A stretch of DNA of 64,000 bases from Venenivibrio stagnispumantis (GTDB lineage: Bacteria > Aquificota > Aquificia > Aquificales > Hydrogenothermaceae): positions 1-64,000 of the forward strand of contig NZ_FXTX01000002.1 in the NCBI RefSeq assembly GCF_900182795.1, given 5' to 3'. Under the pieces are notes generated by a model, which did no database searches, had not been told where the DNA came from, and saw only the letters and a program-made list of their open reading frames with translations. Numbering within the stretch: position 1 is the stretch's first letter; every line of letters begins with the position of its first letter. Of the stretch, positions 2 through 53,048 are shown in pieces. The translations under genes were made by a program, and so were the position numbers.

Positions 2-1096
2 TTATGGTTTATGAAATTAAATATAAAACTACCAACAATAAATAAACAATTTAGATGGTTTGAGATAAAGAAATTAGTTCCAACAAAAATAGCAAGATTA
101 CTAACAAAAGGAGCAAAACCACAAGCACCATTAATAAAAAAAGAGTTGCTTTCAAATGGATATAACATATACAGATTAATCATTCCATTTGAAATAGAAA
201 TAAAATCCTTTGATATAGAGAATATAGAAGAAAACAGAGTATTATCAATAGACCTATCACCAAGTGAAAACAGGCTTGCAGTAGCAACAATATTAGAAGA
301 GAAAAGACATTCAAAACCAATATTTTTTAAAGCAAAAAGAATAATAAGAAAAATAGACAGAATACAAAAAGAGATAGACAAAATAGAAAAGAAAATAGAC
401 CATATAGCAGATGATATACACACAACAAAAAGCAAAAATCATAAAGAAAAACTACAAAACAGATTAAAACATCTATACCAAGAACAAAAAAGAAAACAAA
501 GAAAAATAAAACAAATCAGAAAAGAGATACTGAATATATTCACAAACTGGATAATAGAATATGCTATAAACTACAACATAAAGATAATAGCAATAGAGAA
601 ACTATCATTTAAAAAGATACCAAACTGGCAAAGCAGTAAAGCAATAAAAAGATTTACAGAATGGTTTTACGGCAAGATAAAAGATAAACTCCAATACAAA
701 GCAAAACTAAAAGGTATAAGAATATTAGAAGTTCCACCATCATATACAAGCCAATATTGTCATAAATGCAATAAAAAAGCAGAAGCAGACAGATTAACAT
801 TTAAATGTGAATGTGGAAAATATGATAGAGATTACAATGCAAGTGTAAATATAGGAAAAAGAGCAATAAGAATAATAAATAGAATAAGAGCTGGCAAGTC
901 AAAATCCGGAGAGTATATCTCAAAGGATACTCCTGCCAGAAATCCGTCTCGTCAGGGGCTTGCCAGTTTTACCGGTCTAATATCAGTATTACCATTAACC
1001 AGACTTGTAGCATACAGCAGTTTAGTAGAAATTTCAGCAATAAAACTCAAAAGACTAATCAAATGGATAGATACACGAAATTATGGATATGGATAG
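2..1096 (+). CDS. tnpB: TnpB-type RNA-guided nuclease of an IS200/IS605-family element (5' end cut by window edge)
   Basis: The reading frame is open to the left edge, so the true start is probably outside; the first ATG inside is at 11. Counting from that ATG, the RuvC residues are present: Asp81 (SIDLSPSE), Glu196 (IIAIEKLSF) and Asp274 (DRDYNAS). The zinc finger has Cys250, Cys253, Cys266 and Cys268. A basic coiled-coil segment lies at about 105-172. TnpB proteins are RNA-guided DNA nucleases that help IS605 elements persist at donor sites. No tnpA is visible. The last ~65 codons overlap strong inverted repeats and look more like element-end or guide-RNA DNA than a conserved domain. The catalytic core looks intact. 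Confidence 0.9.
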   Translation, partial: LWFMKLNIKLPTINKQFRWFEIKKLVPTKIARLLTKGAKPQAPLIKKELLSNGYNIYRLIIPFEIEIKSFDIENIEENRVLSIDLSPSENRLAVATILEEKRHSKPIFFKAKRIIRKIDRIQKEIDKIEKKIDHIADDIHTTKSKNHKEKLQNRLKHLYQEQKRKQRKIKQIRKEILNIFTNWIIEYAINYNIKIIAIEKLSFKKIPNWQSSKAIKRFTEWFYGKIKDKLQYKAKLKGIRILEVPPSYTSQYCHKCNKKAEADRLTFKCECGKYDRDYNASVNIGKRAIRIINRIRAGKSKSGEYISKDTPARNPSRQGLASFTGLISVLPLTRLVAYSSLVEISAIKLKRLIKWIDTRNYGYG

Positions 1097-7313: not shown

Positions 7314-7868
7314 TTAGAGGGAGAGAATCTCCTTCTCTTTTGACTCGGTGAGGTTGTTGATTTCTTCTATATATTTGTCGGTTAATTTTTGTAATTTATC
7401 TAAGGCTTTTTTTACTTCGTCTTCAGAAACACCTTCTTTTTTAAGTTTTTCTATTTTTTCTTTGTCATCTCTTCTTACATTTCTAACAGCTATTCTTGCT
7501 TCTTCTGCAAATTTATGGATTAATTTAACTACTTCTCTTCTTCTTTCTTCTGTCATAGGTGGAAGATTTAATCTTATTACATTTCCTTCTGTTTGTGGAT
7601 TGGCTCCGAGATTTGCTTCTATCAATGCTTTTTCTATCAATTTTACTGCTGATTTATCCCAGGACTGAATTAATATAACAGATGGTTCCGGTATTGAGAT
7701 AGTTGCAAGCTGTTTTATAGGAAGTTCTGAGCCATAATAATCTACTTTTATATTTTCAACAAGACCGGTAGAAGCTCTTCCTGTTCTTATTCCTGCAAGC
7801 TCTTCTTTATATTTTGATACTGCCGCTTTCATTCTTTTTTCTGCATCTTTTAGTATTTCCTCTATCAT
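7314..7868 (-). CDS. frr: Ribosome recycling factor
   Basis: 184 residues, the standard RRF length, with the family start RMKAAVSKYKEELAGIRTGRAS and the conserved RLNLPPMTEERRREVVK segment. Two long helices flank the small beta domain. RRF with EF-G splits post-termination ribosomes. It is the last gene of rpsB-tsf-pyrH-frr, the common bacterial order. An AGGTCCGGT-type upstream context gives only a weak ribosome site. Confidence 0.97.
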   Translation of the reverse strand: MIEEILKDAEKRMKAAVSKYKEELAGIRTGRASTGLVENIKVDYYGSELPIKQLATISIPEPSVILIQSWDKSAVKLIEKALIEANLGANPQTEGNVIRLNLPPMTEERRREVVKLIHKFAEEARIAVRNVRRDDKEKIEKLKKEGVSEDEVKKALDKLQKLTDKYIEEINNLTESKEKEILSL

Positions 7869-7880
7869 AACCGGACCTCC

Positions 7881-8594
7881 TTAATTTTTCACTATAGAGC
7901 CTATTTCTTCACCGAAAACGAATTTTCTTAAATTTCCTCTTTCTTTTATATTAAAAACAGCTATTGGTAAATTATTTTCCATACATAATGTTAAGGCTGT
8001 ATGATCCATTACCCTTAAATCCTGATTAATTGCATCAAGATATTTTACTTCTTTAAGTAGCTTAGCATCCAGATATTTATTTGGGTCTTTATCATATATG
8101 CCATCAACTTTTGTTGCTTTTATAAGAACATCTGCTTTTATTTCTGCTGCTCTTAATGCTCCTGTTGTATCAGTTGTAAAAAATGGACTTCCTGTTCCGG
8201 CTGCAAATATTACAACTCTGCCTTTTTCAAGATGCCTGATTGCTCTTCTTCTTATATAAGGTTCTGCAATCTGCCTCATCTCTATTGCTGTCATTACCCT
8301 TGTTGGAACCTCTTTTTTTTCAAGCACATCTTGAAGTGCAAGGGCATTCATTACAGTTGCAAGCATTCCCATATAATCTGCAGTAGCCCTATCCATACCA
8401 ACTTTTGTTCCCTGAACTCCTCTAAATATATTACCACCGCCAATAACAATAGCTACCTGAACGCCTATCTCATATATATCTTTAATTTCATCACATAACT
8501 CATTAACAAAATCAGGGTCAATCCCGTATTCGAGATTGCCCATCAATGCTTCGCCTGATAATTTAAGTAAAATTCTTTTATATTTTAAAGCCAA
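7881..8594 (-). CDS. pyrH: Uridylate kinase (UMP kinase)
   Basis: 237 residues from a TTG start (8594) three bases after the tsf stop, with GGAGAG upstream. Features of the bacterial hexameric amino-acid-kinase-fold enzyme are present: KLSGEALMG near the N-terminus, the glycine-rich [10 protein letters not shown], and [12 protein letters not shown] near residue 140. It phosphorylates UMP to UDP in pyrimidine nucleotide synthesis. The pyrH-frr pairing is widely conserved. Confidence 0.97.
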
Positions 8595-8596
8595 TT

Positions 8597-9190
8597 TTAC
8601 TCTCCGAGTTCATATCTACAAAATCTTCTTACCTGAATATTTTCTCCTATTTTTGCAATATATTCTTTTATCAAATCTTCTATCGTTTTTTTCTCATCTT
8701 TTATATAAGGTTGTTCAAGTAAGCAAACTTCTTTGAAAAATTTTTCAAGCTTTCCTTCTGCTATTTTTTCTGCAATATGTGCCGGCTTTCCTTCTGCCAT
8801 TGCAGCTTCTCTTGCAATTTCTCCTTCTTTTTCTATTACTTCTCTCGGTATATCTTCTCTTTTAACATATTGAGGTCTCATTGCTGCAATTTGAAGTGCT
8901 ATTTCATTTGCAAGCTCTTTAAATAACTCATTTCTTGCAACAAAATCAGTTTCACAATTTATTTCAAGTAAAACTCCTATTCTTCCACCTGCATGTATGT
9001 AAGAATGGATTAAACCTTCTTTTGTTTCTCTACCTGCTTTTTTTGCAGCTTTTGCTATTCCTTTTTTTCTAAGTAATTCAACTGCTTCTTCAAGATTTCC
9101 GTTTGTTTCTTCTAATGCTTTTTTGCATTCAAGCATTCCTGCACCGGTCATCTCTCTTAAAGTTTTAACTAAGTTTGCATCTATTGCCAT
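8597..9190 (-). CDS. tsf: Elongation factor Ts
   Basis: 197 residues, the short form seen in several thermophiles. The N-terminal UBA-like domain ([16 protein letters not shown]) and the TDFVARNE motif that contacts EF-Tu are both present. It is the nucleotide-exchange factor for EF-Tu. It lies 14 bases downstream of rpsB in a clear operon. Confidence 0.97.
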
Positions 9191-9204: not shown

Positions 9205-10056
9205 TTAAACTTCTTCTTTAATTTCTTTATCTACAGCTCTTTCTATAGCTTCTTCCTTAGAAGGATTTCTTGCTCCATATACACCTGATTCAACTACATT
9301 AGCTCTTTCAAGCAACTCTTCCTCTACAGATTTCATTTCACCGGAAGATACTGCTAAACCTGTAGATTCTCTTACTTGTTTTCCTTCTATGATAGCATCT
9401 GCTATTTTTGACGTAATCAATTGGATAGCTTTAATTGCATCATCATTCCCTGGTATAGGATAATCTATCATATCTGGGTCGCAGTTTGTATCTGCTATCG
9501 CTACAACCGGAATTCCAAGCTTTCTTGCTTCTACCAATGCAAGATGTTCTCTAACTGTATCAACAACAAAAAGGATATCTGGCAATCTATCCATATCAAT
9601 GATACCTTTTAAATTCTTTTCAAGTTTTTCTTTTTGTTTTTTTATCTTTACTACTTCTTTCTTAGGAAGTATTTCAAAAGCCCCTTCAGCTTCCATTCTT
9701 TCAAGTTTTCTTAATTTTGCTATACTTTTTTGAACTGTTTGGAAGTTTGTAAGCATTCCACCAAGCCATCTGTGATTTACATAAGGAGAGCCACACCTTT
9801 TAGCTTCTTCTTCAATTATTGCCTGAGCTTGTTTTTTTGTTCCTACAAATAAAACTGTAGCTCCATTAGCCACTTGTTCTGATACAAAATCAAGAGCCTG
9901 TCTGAAAAGTGGTATAGTTTTAGCAAGGTCAATGATATGAATGCCGTTTCTTTTTGTAAAGATATACGGCTTCATTTTCGGGTTCCATCTTCTTGCCTGA
10001 TGCCCGAAATGCACTCCTGCTTCAAGGAGTTCTCTCATACTGATTTCTACTGTCAT
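9205..10056 (-). CDS. rpsB: 30S ribosomal protein S2
   Basis: 283 residues. The S2 signature [24 protein letters not shown] is at the N-terminus, with [13 protein letters not shown] near residue 95 and the [13 protein letters not shown] region near 185. The extra acidic C-terminal tail (after about 235) is rich in Glu. The ATG is preceded by AGGAGG at 10065-10070. The upstream leader is about 160 bases and strongly structured, which suggests autoregulation of the rpsB-tsf operon as known for S2 elsewhere. Confidence 0.97.
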
Positions 10057-10070
10057 AAAACATTCCTCCT

Positions 10071-10210
10071 AAGGGTTTTTTTCTTCCGCTTCTTAAAAAA
10101 GACCCATAAGGGCAACCGTCCCATCTTTCCGTATCCATAATCGTATAAACCTATCCATTTAAATGGGTCAAAAAATCAATGTACTGTATGCAACCCTTTT
10201 TCAAAGAAGC
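10071..10210 (-). promoter_or_regulatory. Structured rpsB leader with pseudoknot-like pairings
   Basis: On the transcript GCUUCUU (10210-10204) can pair with AAGAAGC (10094-10088), and AAGGGUU (10198-10192) with AACCCUU (10077-10071). The order A-B-A'-B' is that of an H-type pseudoknot. A third helix, GACCCAU (10169-10163) with AUGGGUC (10107-10101), is nested inside and closes a loop holding the 45-base element. The B' strand directly abuts the AGGAGG ribosome site, so the fold could gate S2 translation. Confidence 0.55.
10116..10160 (-). repeat. 45-base element, copy 2 (rpsB leader)
   Basis: The reverse complement matches 1061-1105 at 36 of 45 positions without gaps. It fills the loop closed by the inner helix of the rpsB leader. 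Read in the same frame, both copies encode KWI....YGYG and then (K or stop) MGR. Confidence 0.7.
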
Positions 10211-10229
10211 GTGCTTAATTAAGTAAAAT

Positions 10230-10259
10230 ATTGTATCATATTATAAAAAATTTTTCCAA
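10230..10259 (-). promoter_or_regulatory. Promoter for rpsB-tsf-pyrH-frr
   Basis: On the minus strand a -35 TTGGAA (10254-10259) and a -10 TACAAT (10230-10235) are separated by 18 bases. The start site would be near 10223, giving a ~165-base leader. Confidence 0.5.
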
Positions 10260-10268
10260 TGAGGTTTG

Positions 10269-11333
10269 ATGAAGAAATTATATATATACCTGTATCAAAG
10301 GCTATTATTTTATATATTAGTAGTGTTTCCTTCTTTTGCTTTCGTTTCAATTTTTATAGAATTGATAGAGATACTTAGAAAAACAAAAATTTTAGATTAT
10401 AAATTAATTTCTTTATATATTTTATTTAAAATTCCGGAAAAAATTTATTATATTTTGCCTTTATCTGTGGTTATCTCTTTATTTTTGACAATAAATGAGA
10501 TGTATAAAAAAAGAGAAATAGATATTATTTTAATAAATGGCATATCTTTGAAAAATCTATCTTATAGATTTATACTATTTTCAATTTTTGTATTTTTTGT
10601 CCAATTGATAAATCTTGAAGCAGTTATGTCACCGGCTCAAAAAAATTCTATGCTTATATACTCAAAATTAAAATCAGAAGATATAACAGAAGAAAAAAAT
10701 CTATTAGTTTATAATTTGTGGCTTAGTTATGATGAAAATAAATTTATATATTTTGATTTTTTAGATTTAGATAAAAAATCCGGTAAAAATTTTATATTTA
10801 TTCAGCTTGATAAAGATTTTAAACCGGTATATAAAATAGAAAGCTCATCTTTTAATATTAAAGAAAATGATAAAATAGAAGTAGAAAATGCTAAATTTAT
10901 AAAAATAAACAGCATTTATGATTTTCAGATTGAAAATATCACAAAAAGCACATTATTTATATCTTTGGATATAGATAAAATAAAAAAATTAGTGATAACA
11001 AAAAAACCTGTTTCTTTGTCAGAACTTTACAAAATAGCAACTATTGCCCAAAGATATGGATATGAAGCATTATATTACTGGTCTCAGTTTTATTTAAAGT
11101 TAGCAACCGTAATATCTCCTATTATTCTTACTATCTTTATACTTCCATTTTTATGGAGAAATAATATTAGAGAGATTACTGTTGGAATGATATTTGTATT
11201 ATTTTACTGGTATATCATAACTTTTTTCTCATCTCTTTCAGAAAGTGGTGTTATTCCGCATTTTGCCATATTTACAGTAGATTTTGCTTATGCCATAATA
11301 GGATTTTATAGATTATTCCGGTTAGAAAATTAA
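10269..11333 (+). CDS. LptF/LptG-family permease (YjgP/YjgQ), LPS export
   Basis: 354 residues from the ATG at 10269, with GAGG just upstream. Three transmembrane segments lie before residue 110, a beta-rich periplasmic domain at about 115-270, and three more segments at the C-terminus. This is the layout of LptF and LptG, the inner-membrane half of the LptB2FGC transporter that moves lipopolysaccharide to the outer membrane. Sequence alone does not separate F from G. It is divergent from rpsB and its stop is three bases from the end of pheA. lpxK elsewhere in the window supports an LPS-bearing envelope. Confidence 0.85.
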   Translation: MKKLYIYLYQRLLFYILVVFPSFAFVSIFIELIEILRKTKILDYKLISLYILFKIPEKIYYILPLSVVISLFLTINEMYKKREIDIILINGISLKNLSYRFILFSIFVFFVQLINLEAVMSPAQKNSMLIYSKLKSEDITEEKNLLVYNLWLSYDENKFIYFDFLDLDKKSGKNFIFIQLDKDFKPVYKIESSSFNIKENDKIEVENAKFIKINSIYDFQIENITKSTLFISLDIDKIKKLVITKKPVSLSELYKIATIAQRYGYEALYYWSQFYLKLATVISPIILTIFILPFLWRNNIREITVGMIFVLFYWYIITFFSSLSESGVIPHFAIFTVDFAYAIIGFYRLFRLEN

Positions 11334-52674: not shown

Positions 52675-52836
52675 ATGATTTATATATTAACTGCAACATT
52701 TTGGATTGGTGGGATGTTGTTTATGGTATTTGTTCTTTCTTCTTATGTGAGAAAATTACCTAAAAGCACAAAAATTTTTATAGCAGTAGGAAAAAGATTT
52801 AGTATTCTGGGAACTTTTACTTTCTATCCCACATAG
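52675..52836 (+). pseudogene. N-terminal fragment of a small membrane protein, ending inside the first CRISPR repeat
   Basis: 53 codons (MIYILTATFWIGGMLFMVF ... VGKRFSILGTFT) resemble the start of CopD/DUF2269-type membrane proteins, with the WIGGM motif and the RF...G motif. After GTFT the frame enters the CRISPR repeat and stops at FYPT. No ribosome site precedes the ATG. The gene seems to have been cut when the array, or a rearrangement next to it, arrived. The family call is tentative. Confidence 0.5.
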
Positions 52837-53048
52837 TTCAGATAAAACAAATTTTAAAAAGGAGGAATTGGACATGGAAAAAGTATTCTTTCTATCCCAC
52901 ATAGTTCAGATAAAACATACAGTAACAAATCTTAATGACGGGAGCAAGCAAACCTTTCTATCCCACATAGTTCAGATAAAACGATTTAATTTGATTTCAT
53001 TGTTTAACTTTTTGATTTTCTTTCTATCCCACATAGTTCAGATAAAAC
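52820..53048 (-). CRISPR. CRISPR array, four 29-base repeats and three spacers, no cas genes
   Basis: Identical repeats are at 52820-52848, 52888-52916, 52954-52982 and 53020-53048. On the minus strand they start GTTTTATCTGAAC and end GGGATAGAAAG, a form common in type I and III systems. The spacers are 39, 37 and 37 bases and unrelated to each other. A near-consensus promoter upstream on the minus strand sets the direction. All four repeats are identical, so the array does not look decayed. No cas gene lies in the window. Confidence 0.95.

Follow-up and report, generated by a model that had tools for sequence, protein, structure and literature searches.

The rpsB motif, described by Meyer et al. 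2009 (PMC2704228), lies upstream of rpsB, the gene for ribosomal protein S2. In the available part of that paper, the motif is a stem P1 topped by a junction with P2 and P3, in which the strand between P2 and P3 (J2-3) pairs with a 3' extension after P1; P3 is variable, P2 can be missing, and five pseudoknot base pairs (bp) are stated, three in Firmicutes. The same part refers to work in Escherichia coli where the rpsB leader responds to S2 in vivo. The Rfam family t44 is attached to rpsB in the available text of PMC2659441. For E. coli, the accessible portion of PMC10931766 places the ribosome site outside the operator, lets S1 assist S2, calls the repression mechanism unclear and cites later probing in which the S2 sites of 16S rRNA and of rpsB mRNA proved alike in architecture. 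In the present study, we analysed a stretch of 64,000 nucleotides (nt) of Venenivibrio stagnispumantis (Aquificota; assembly GCF_900182795.1, contig NZ_FXTX01000002.1, positions 1-64,000), hereafter the window, and in it the leader directly upstream of rpsB. A first-pass annotation, made from the letters alone, had proposed a pseudoknotted leader abutting the ribosome site. We consider it likely that this leader belongs to the rpsB-motif class, that a pseudoknot stabilised by S2 would occlude its Shine-Dalgarno sequence, and that it can fold with the transposon-derived insert that it carries.

Conservation and covariation of the rpsB leader in Aquificota

A protein search for S2 over 136 Aquificota genomes matched 126, and 123 readable leaders were obtained from them; one genome has only 17 nt upstream (G117) and two stop at contig ends (G104 and G056). 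The motif was found in 119 of the 123 leaders, in all 29 genera having rpsB, 116 being read by position-anchored parsing and three (G022, G028, G039) by eye. The four other leaders comprise three in which it is absent (G014, G017, G024) and one that holds a transposon remnant (G026). The common layout is CAC, the P1 5' strand, NNGGGT(T/G/C), a C-rich/G-rich hairpin (P3), the P1 3' strand, G-A/G/T-A/G-G, an A-run, ACC(C)NN and the Shine-Dalgarno sequence. In the 87 leaders of families f1 and f2, read by an anchored script, P1 has all 8 pairs in 80 and 7 pairs in 6, with one misparsed; in families f3-f5 P1 was read by eye and with a permissive script only. A permissive search, which in some f1 leaders may have taken bases of the P1 3' strand, finds a P3 hairpin with at least three G-C pairs in 107 of 116 leaders; no P2 stem is evident in f1/f2.

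Covariation was scored on 49 distinct cores of f1 and f2, leaving out f3-f5, the leader with misparsed P1 (L026) and duplicates. Two controls were used, namely shuffles, which ignore the relatedness of the rows, and slides, which keep it. Among 784 cells 94.0% are paired, against 77.1% when shuffled and 70.1% in the best slide; both bases are changed in 142 cells (48.9 shuffled, best slide 39), and the covariation score is 0.491 (0.177 shuffled, best slide 0.180). Further pair types amount to 29 against 24.0 in shuffles, of which 1 in 500 was as high. Change on both sides was seen in 7 of the 8 pairs of P1, and its pair 2 occurs in four types (C-G 23, G-C 16, A-U 7, U-A 3). The pseudoknot core UGGG/CCCA is invariant, and its outer pairs e1 and e2 covary: e1 is A-U in 25 cores, U-A in 16, C-G in 5, U-G in 1 and unpaired in 2, and e2 is A-U in 21, U-A in 15, G-U in 4, C-G in 1 and unpaired in 8. 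The pair e3 is unpaired in 29 of the 49. Counted by genus, e1 is A-U in 11 genera, U-A in 7, C-G in 5 and of the U-G form in one. When each genus and letter pair of f1-f3 was given a single row, none of 5000 shuffles paired as highly at e1 or e2, and 73 of 5000 did so at e3.

These results establish P1 and the pseudoknot by covariation, and P3 and a -10-like box by recurrence. The comparison of relatives' leaders that the first-pass annotation had suggested therefore found compensatory changes in both helices across the phylum, and the proposal of a pseudoknotted leader at the ribosome site is borne out by this covariation and by the -10-like box upstream in nearly all relatives.

Two side observations concern the families. 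The leader of G107 (L125) has an unusually long P3 region, with 59 nt between J2-3 and the P1 3' strand, so that long arms at this position are not confined to the window's leader. At f4/f5 loci (e.g. L161, L203), S2 carries an E/Q-rich N-terminal extension of about 30-45 residues before the usual start, and the leader precedes the earlier start.

The leader in the window

The rpsB gene, taken from the open reading frame list, occupies 9205-10056 of the minus strand (283 amino acids; Pfam PF00318 Ribosomal_S2, E 2.3e-102), with its start at 10056. All parts of the leader lie on the same strand. The P1 5' strand CGCTTCTT (10204-10211) consists of strand A of the first-pass annotation (GCTTCTT, 10204-10210) and one extra pair, and is followed by the pseudoknot 5' strand AAGGGTT (B, corresponding to J2-3; 10192-10198). 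The conserved P3 hairpin CCC-TTAT-GGG (10103-10112) is placed by folding and recurrence, with an identical GCCCTTATGGGT in the relative L002. Then come the P1 3' strand AAGAAGCG (10087-10094; strand A', AAGAAGC, 10088-10094, and the extra pair), the A-rich linker GAAGAAAAA from P1 to the pseudoknot strand (10078-10086), delimited by comparison of leaders, and the pseudoknot 3' strand AACCCTT (B', 10071-10077), which adjoins the Shine-Dalgarno sequence AGGAGG (10065-10070). The strands of P1 and of the pseudoknot were assigned by comparison and covariation. The leader has two GGTTGC strands, and the choice was set by hand, the first for the pseudoknot and the second for P3. The second GGTT (CGGTTGCC, 10111-10118) was also tried as the true pseudoknot strand and was rejected, with 4 bp only and -3.6 versus -7.6 kcal/mol.

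The three 7-base pairings that had been read from the letters, in the order A-B-C-C'-A'-B' ahead of rpsB, are exactly in place, and B' ends precisely at AGGAGG with zero gap. Of 3000 Markov resamples of the 152-nt leader, 183 contained two interleaved exact 7-bp pairs, as did 773 of 5108 equally long pieces of the AT-rich window; a third, nested 7-bp pair was present as well in 1 of the 3000 resamples. Since interleaved pairs are this frequent, the pairing pattern alone is weak evidence, and the support for A/A' and B/B' comes from the comparison, which shows conservation with compensatory changes. The knot-free fold of the leader is not unusual in stability (z = -1.25; 25 of 200 shuffles equally good).

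Upstream of P1, an extended -10 promoter-like element TATGATACAAT was located by promoter scan and comparison at 10230-10240 (minus strand), 16 nt before the CAC that opens P1. The scan assigned to it a -35-like TTGGAA with a spacer of 18 nt, and gave 10 promoter-like sites in the region against 4.4 in shuffles. Of the 87 f1/f2 leaders, 86 have a -10-like box (5 or 6 of 6) upstream of P1, and in 71 of these the extended TG is present, in a count made without a shuffled control. Transcription from this extended -10 promoter is thus probable on pattern evidence rather than on a mapped start. An intrinsic terminator or attenuator was considered and rejected, with no terminator-like site in a scan of 9900-10600. 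An Rfam scan of the window region returned two chance-level matches and no known family.

The rpsB gene is the first of a run rpsB-tsf-pyrH-frr, in which we take the genes at 8597-9190, 7881-8594 and 7314-7868 to be tsf, pyrH and frr from reading their translations. On the opposite strand, a LptF/LptG gene divergent from rpsB starts at 10266.

The transposon-derived insert

In comparison with relatives such as L002 (AAGAGGGTTGCCCTTATGGGT), the leader of the window has 78 extra nt after GGG. This insert (10116-10193, minus strand) sits between the GGG of the pseudoknot strand, which are invariant pseudoknot bases, and TTGCCC; TTGC occurs at both of its ends, so that the left border is ambiguous by 4 nt. 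Comparison with relatives and genome searches indicate that it consists of both ends of an IS605-type tnpB element without tnpB, in the manner of a miniature inverted-repeat transposable element (MITE). The IS200/IS605 family name is our presumption, and the analysis shows a TnpB-type TNB domain only.

The right-end part covers 46 nt (10116-10161, minus strand) and ends with GGGACGG. It is 81-89% identical to seven other places of the same genome (E 3.3e-5 or better), and nine more matches are weak (E at least 0.06). One of the seven is the 3' end of a TnpB gene at window 2-1096, and the flanks of the copies diverge 0-2 nt after GGGACGG. Among the 41 genomes of the window's family, clear matches occur in five (its own, G067, G095, G096 and G103); two more barely pass E 0.01, G098 with 18 nt and G078 with a match to its own rpsB leader. 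The left-end part covers 20 nt (10170-10189, minus strand) and agrees at 18 of 20 positions (E 0.010 against four loci) with the left end of a G103 element in which left end, tnpB frame and right end stand in order on one contig. The insert thus carries the left and right ends of one tnpB element without the gene, as is found in MITEs of tnpB elements (IS200/IS605 type). In the genome of the window itself, left and right ends could not be linked because the copies run into contig ends. A left-end pattern was written from the leader, G103 and G026, which match it by construction; it hit seven places of the own genome versus none for a reversed control, and five of the seven share GCTAACA before and similar AT-rich sequence after. 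Over 112 genomes the pattern hit 47 places versus 18 for the reversed control, so single left-end matches elsewhere mean little. A G-run lies ahead of many, not all, copies of the element.

A relative of the inserted element stands at 2-1105 of the plus strand. It is a TnpB gene with 364 amino acids in hand and its frame cut by the contig start (Cas12f1-like_TNB, E 4.5e-19), together with a right end at 1061-1105. The opposite end of this contig (G000:C2:154271-155353) holds a copy that is 97% identical and also runs into the contig end; since TnpB copies run into both contig ends, this repeat is the probable cause of the break in the assembly. At 52820-53048 of the plus strand lie four CRISPR repeats with a spacing of 66-68 nt (Rfam CRISPR-DR43).

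The insert starts with TTGC, as does the sequence that it displaced, and hence the 7-bp strand AAGGGTT is intact. P1, the conserved P3 and the full 7-bp pseudoknot are all still possible, and the leader of the window is predicted to fold still. A stable fold of the insert by itself was not supported (z = +0.37). G026 (L237) shows another event of this kind, in which a 233-nt remnant of a tnpB element, from left end to right end, stands in place of P1, J2-3 and P3; it ends in GGGACGG followed by TGGCAAAACCC and has a short stretch like a TnpB C-terminus (blastp E 2e-5 versus one protein).

Proposed mechanism

Homology to the published rpsB motif makes S2 autoregulation, which the first-pass annotation had suggested, the natural interpretation, and from this analogy we take S2 as the probable ligand, repression as the probable effect and occlusion as the probable step. 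Transcription would start few nt before P1, from the extended -10 promoter. P1 (8 bp) would close the domain, and its inner single strand AAGGGTT would pair with AACCCTT just 3' of P1. The resulting pseudoknot would reach to the ribosome site AGGAGG, with P3 (CCC/GGG) beside the knot. When in excess over 16S rRNA, S2 would bind this domain, probably helped by S1, and fix the pseudoknot. The fixed pseudoknot would keep the 30S subunit off the Shine-Dalgarno sequence, leading to less rpsB and probably less tsf expression. The gap from ACCC to GGAG (or GAGG) measures 2-5 nt in f1, 0-4 in f2, 0-3 in f3 and 1-9 in f4/f5. Because two further bases usually pair there, the knot ends at most 3 nt from the GGAG core or overlaps the Shine-Dalgarno sequence in f1-f3, the window's family included, and the outer pseudoknot pairs of f2 and f3 use the first bases of AGGAGG.

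In f1 leaders such as L011, L017 and L020, AAAGGG of the pseudoknot is also able to pair, across TTG, with CCCTTT, the neighbouring P3 strand. By a rough script, a competing hairpin of at least 5 bp between J2-3 and the P3 5' strand was present in 29 of 34 f1 leaders measured and in 7 of 43 in f2. This hairpin might be an alternative 'on' state in the family of the window's leader.

Evidence to the contrary and rival explanations

Several observations weigh against control of this leader by S2 through a conserved pseudoknot. Simply counting the pairs that have changed on both sides gives 10 in the 49 cores, which does not stand out from the shuffles (9.3; 217 of 500), and e1 is invariant inside the family of the window's leader, so that this family alone would not show covariation. 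In f4/f5, e1 is unpaired in 16 of 22 leaders (15 of 20 in f5, 1 of 2 in f4) and 8 of the 22 have no third G-C, and by these losses the knot is down to about 3-5 bp there. Added to a bare 7-bp duplex (-7.6, with no loop penalty counted), P1, P3 and the insert stem (-24.6) do not surpass the best fold without a knot (-33.4 kcal/mol, all at 37°C). The genome encodes a whole-profile match to rpsA (E 5.9e-98, 327 bits), which says little, since the same search matches all 14 control genomes and the score is under the NCBIfam cut-off of 577. Three genomes of one genus, G014 (L162), G017 (L151) and G024 (L186), have a -10 box TATAAT and then a Shine-Dalgarno sequence within about 30 nt; as the leader is absent there and replaced in G026, it looks dispensable and sometimes lost. 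Finally, the Rfam model of the E. coli leader (RF00127, gathering cut-off 44 bits) has no match in the window, and none of the 136 Aquificota genomes reaches its cut-off.

The leader of the window is thus outside RF00127, its gathering score not being reached, and an Rfam scan of 20 relatives gave no leader family at gathering score. Below the cut-off, RF00127 matched the rpsB leaders of G112 (39.7 bits, E 1.5e-7), which is the best score, G058 (35.2 bits, E 4.5e-6), G113 (E 1.3e-6), G123 (5.8e-5) and G042 (1.1e-3). Weaker matches off the rpsB leader were found in G027 (twice), G039 and G107 (E 0.07 to 5.8), and one in G084 (E 3.9) cannot be placed, no rpsB being found there. Matches occurred in 6 of 14 control genomes, or in 2 with stricter filters, one of them above the cut-off.

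The leader may be real and ancestral and the window copy broken, with the 78-nt insert disturbing the junction and S2 control lost or weakened. Among the f1 leaders read, only this one has an insert between pseudoknot strand and P3; in the knot-free fold, the first GGGUU region is paired to the insert; and related leaders can be missing or replaced, as described above. Nevertheless, the window copy has kept P1, P3 and the full 7-bp pseudoknot although its insert is 11-19% different from the nearest copies, which suggests that the insertion was not recent, and we regard a broken copy as possible but unlikely. A passive 5' element without S2 feedback, acting on mRNA stability or on efficient initiation through docking of S1 on the pseudoknot, seems rather improbable to us in Aquificota. 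The available part of PMC10931766 describes pseudoknots as targets that S1 binds with high affinity in E. coli; the leader is absent in three genomes, and S2 feedback in Aquificota is argued by analogy. On the other hand, S2-mediated control is reported for the same layout at the same gene in E. coli (in the portions of PMC2704228 and PMC10931766 available), and in the window the knot touches the Shine-Dalgarno sequence.

The first-pass annotation had also drawn a third 7-base helix, and this helix did not survive the comparison. Strand C (GACCCAT, 10163-10169, minus strand) lies, by alignment to relatives, within the transposon-derived insert that their leaders lack, and strand C' (ATGGGTC, 10101-10107, minus strand) overlaps the conserved P3; helix C was therefore rejected as a conserved leader part. 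When P1 is imposed and the pseudoknot strands are set aside, the most stable fold contains P3, and the GACCCAT region pairs inside the insert (-24.6 kcal/mol); forcing C/C' gives -23.6. The match of C to C' is a perfect 7 bp and the cost only about 1 kcal/mol, a difference so small that conservation decides against the pairing. The full A-B-C-C'-A'-B' fold, with helix C as part of a lineage-specific S2 switch, is accordingly very improbable. We give the slimmest chance to a leader that has taken the insert into use. Such an insert would form a stem between pseudoknot strand and P3, with a second GGTT strand and a P3-displacing GACCCAT that allow alternative pairings and a changed S2 set-point; in addition, the genome's own TnpB might recognise in the rpsB leader RNA, which carries the last 46 nt of the right end in sense direction, a guide-RNA-like 3' end.

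Comparison with known systems

We thus return to the reading of the leader as a member of the rpsB-motif class. It lies upstream of rpsB and has an 8-bp P1, a 7-bp J2-3 pseudoknot and P3 with CCC/GGG; the compensatory changes in the pseudoknot extend across f1-f3 and are weaker in f4/f5. The leader class is a known one, the rpsB motif or S2 autoregulatory leader. A structure specific to this lineage, as had been suggested, can be discarded, since E. coli has the same layout ahead of rpsB, as do 31 of 73 loci of other phyla by a strict descriptor. These 73 rpsB loci were picked by nearness of S2, not at random; 42 do not fit the strict descriptor, several of which look alike in layout by eye, and 4 of 1460 resampled controls fit it.

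In the portion of their leader table available, Eckert and Weinberg 2020 name no S2 leader, and rpsB appears only as the gene behind a Bacteroidia L13 leader. We found no report on the rpsB leader of Aquificota in the literature searched, from which most subscription papers were outside, so that absence from print is not proven. As far as we could search, the phylum-wide occurrence with the knot at the Shine-Dalgarno sequence and the transposon-invaded copy are new. With the covariation, a known class of S2 leaders comes to include a phylum missed by the curated Rfam model. In f1-f3 the knot lies within 3 nt of or over the Shine-Dalgarno core, which makes occlusion directly testable with a thermostable S2 and two-base swaps, and the invaded copy in the window amounts to an insertion experiment done by nature on a regulatory RNA.

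The insert resembles IS200/IS605-type TnpB elements and their derived MITEs in having both ends without tnpB, in being multicopy, in standing after GGG and in showing no clear duplication, and it differs from them in sitting inside a ribosomal protein leader. The leaders of Aquificota share their architecture with the rpsB motif of Meyer et al., namely P1, a J2-3 pseudoknot with the 3' extension, and P3, but their pseudoknot reaches up to 7-9 bp instead of five (three in Firmicutes); in the window, the knot moreover touches the Shine-Dalgarno sequence and the 78-nt transposon insert is present. The rpsB leader of E. coli (tff/t44, RF00127) has the same order of parts, with a P1 of 8 bp and a 5-bp pseudoknot GGGGT/ACCCC, but its strand ACCCC ends 12 nt before GAGG, unlike the leader of the window, where the pseudoknot strand adjoins AGGAGG.
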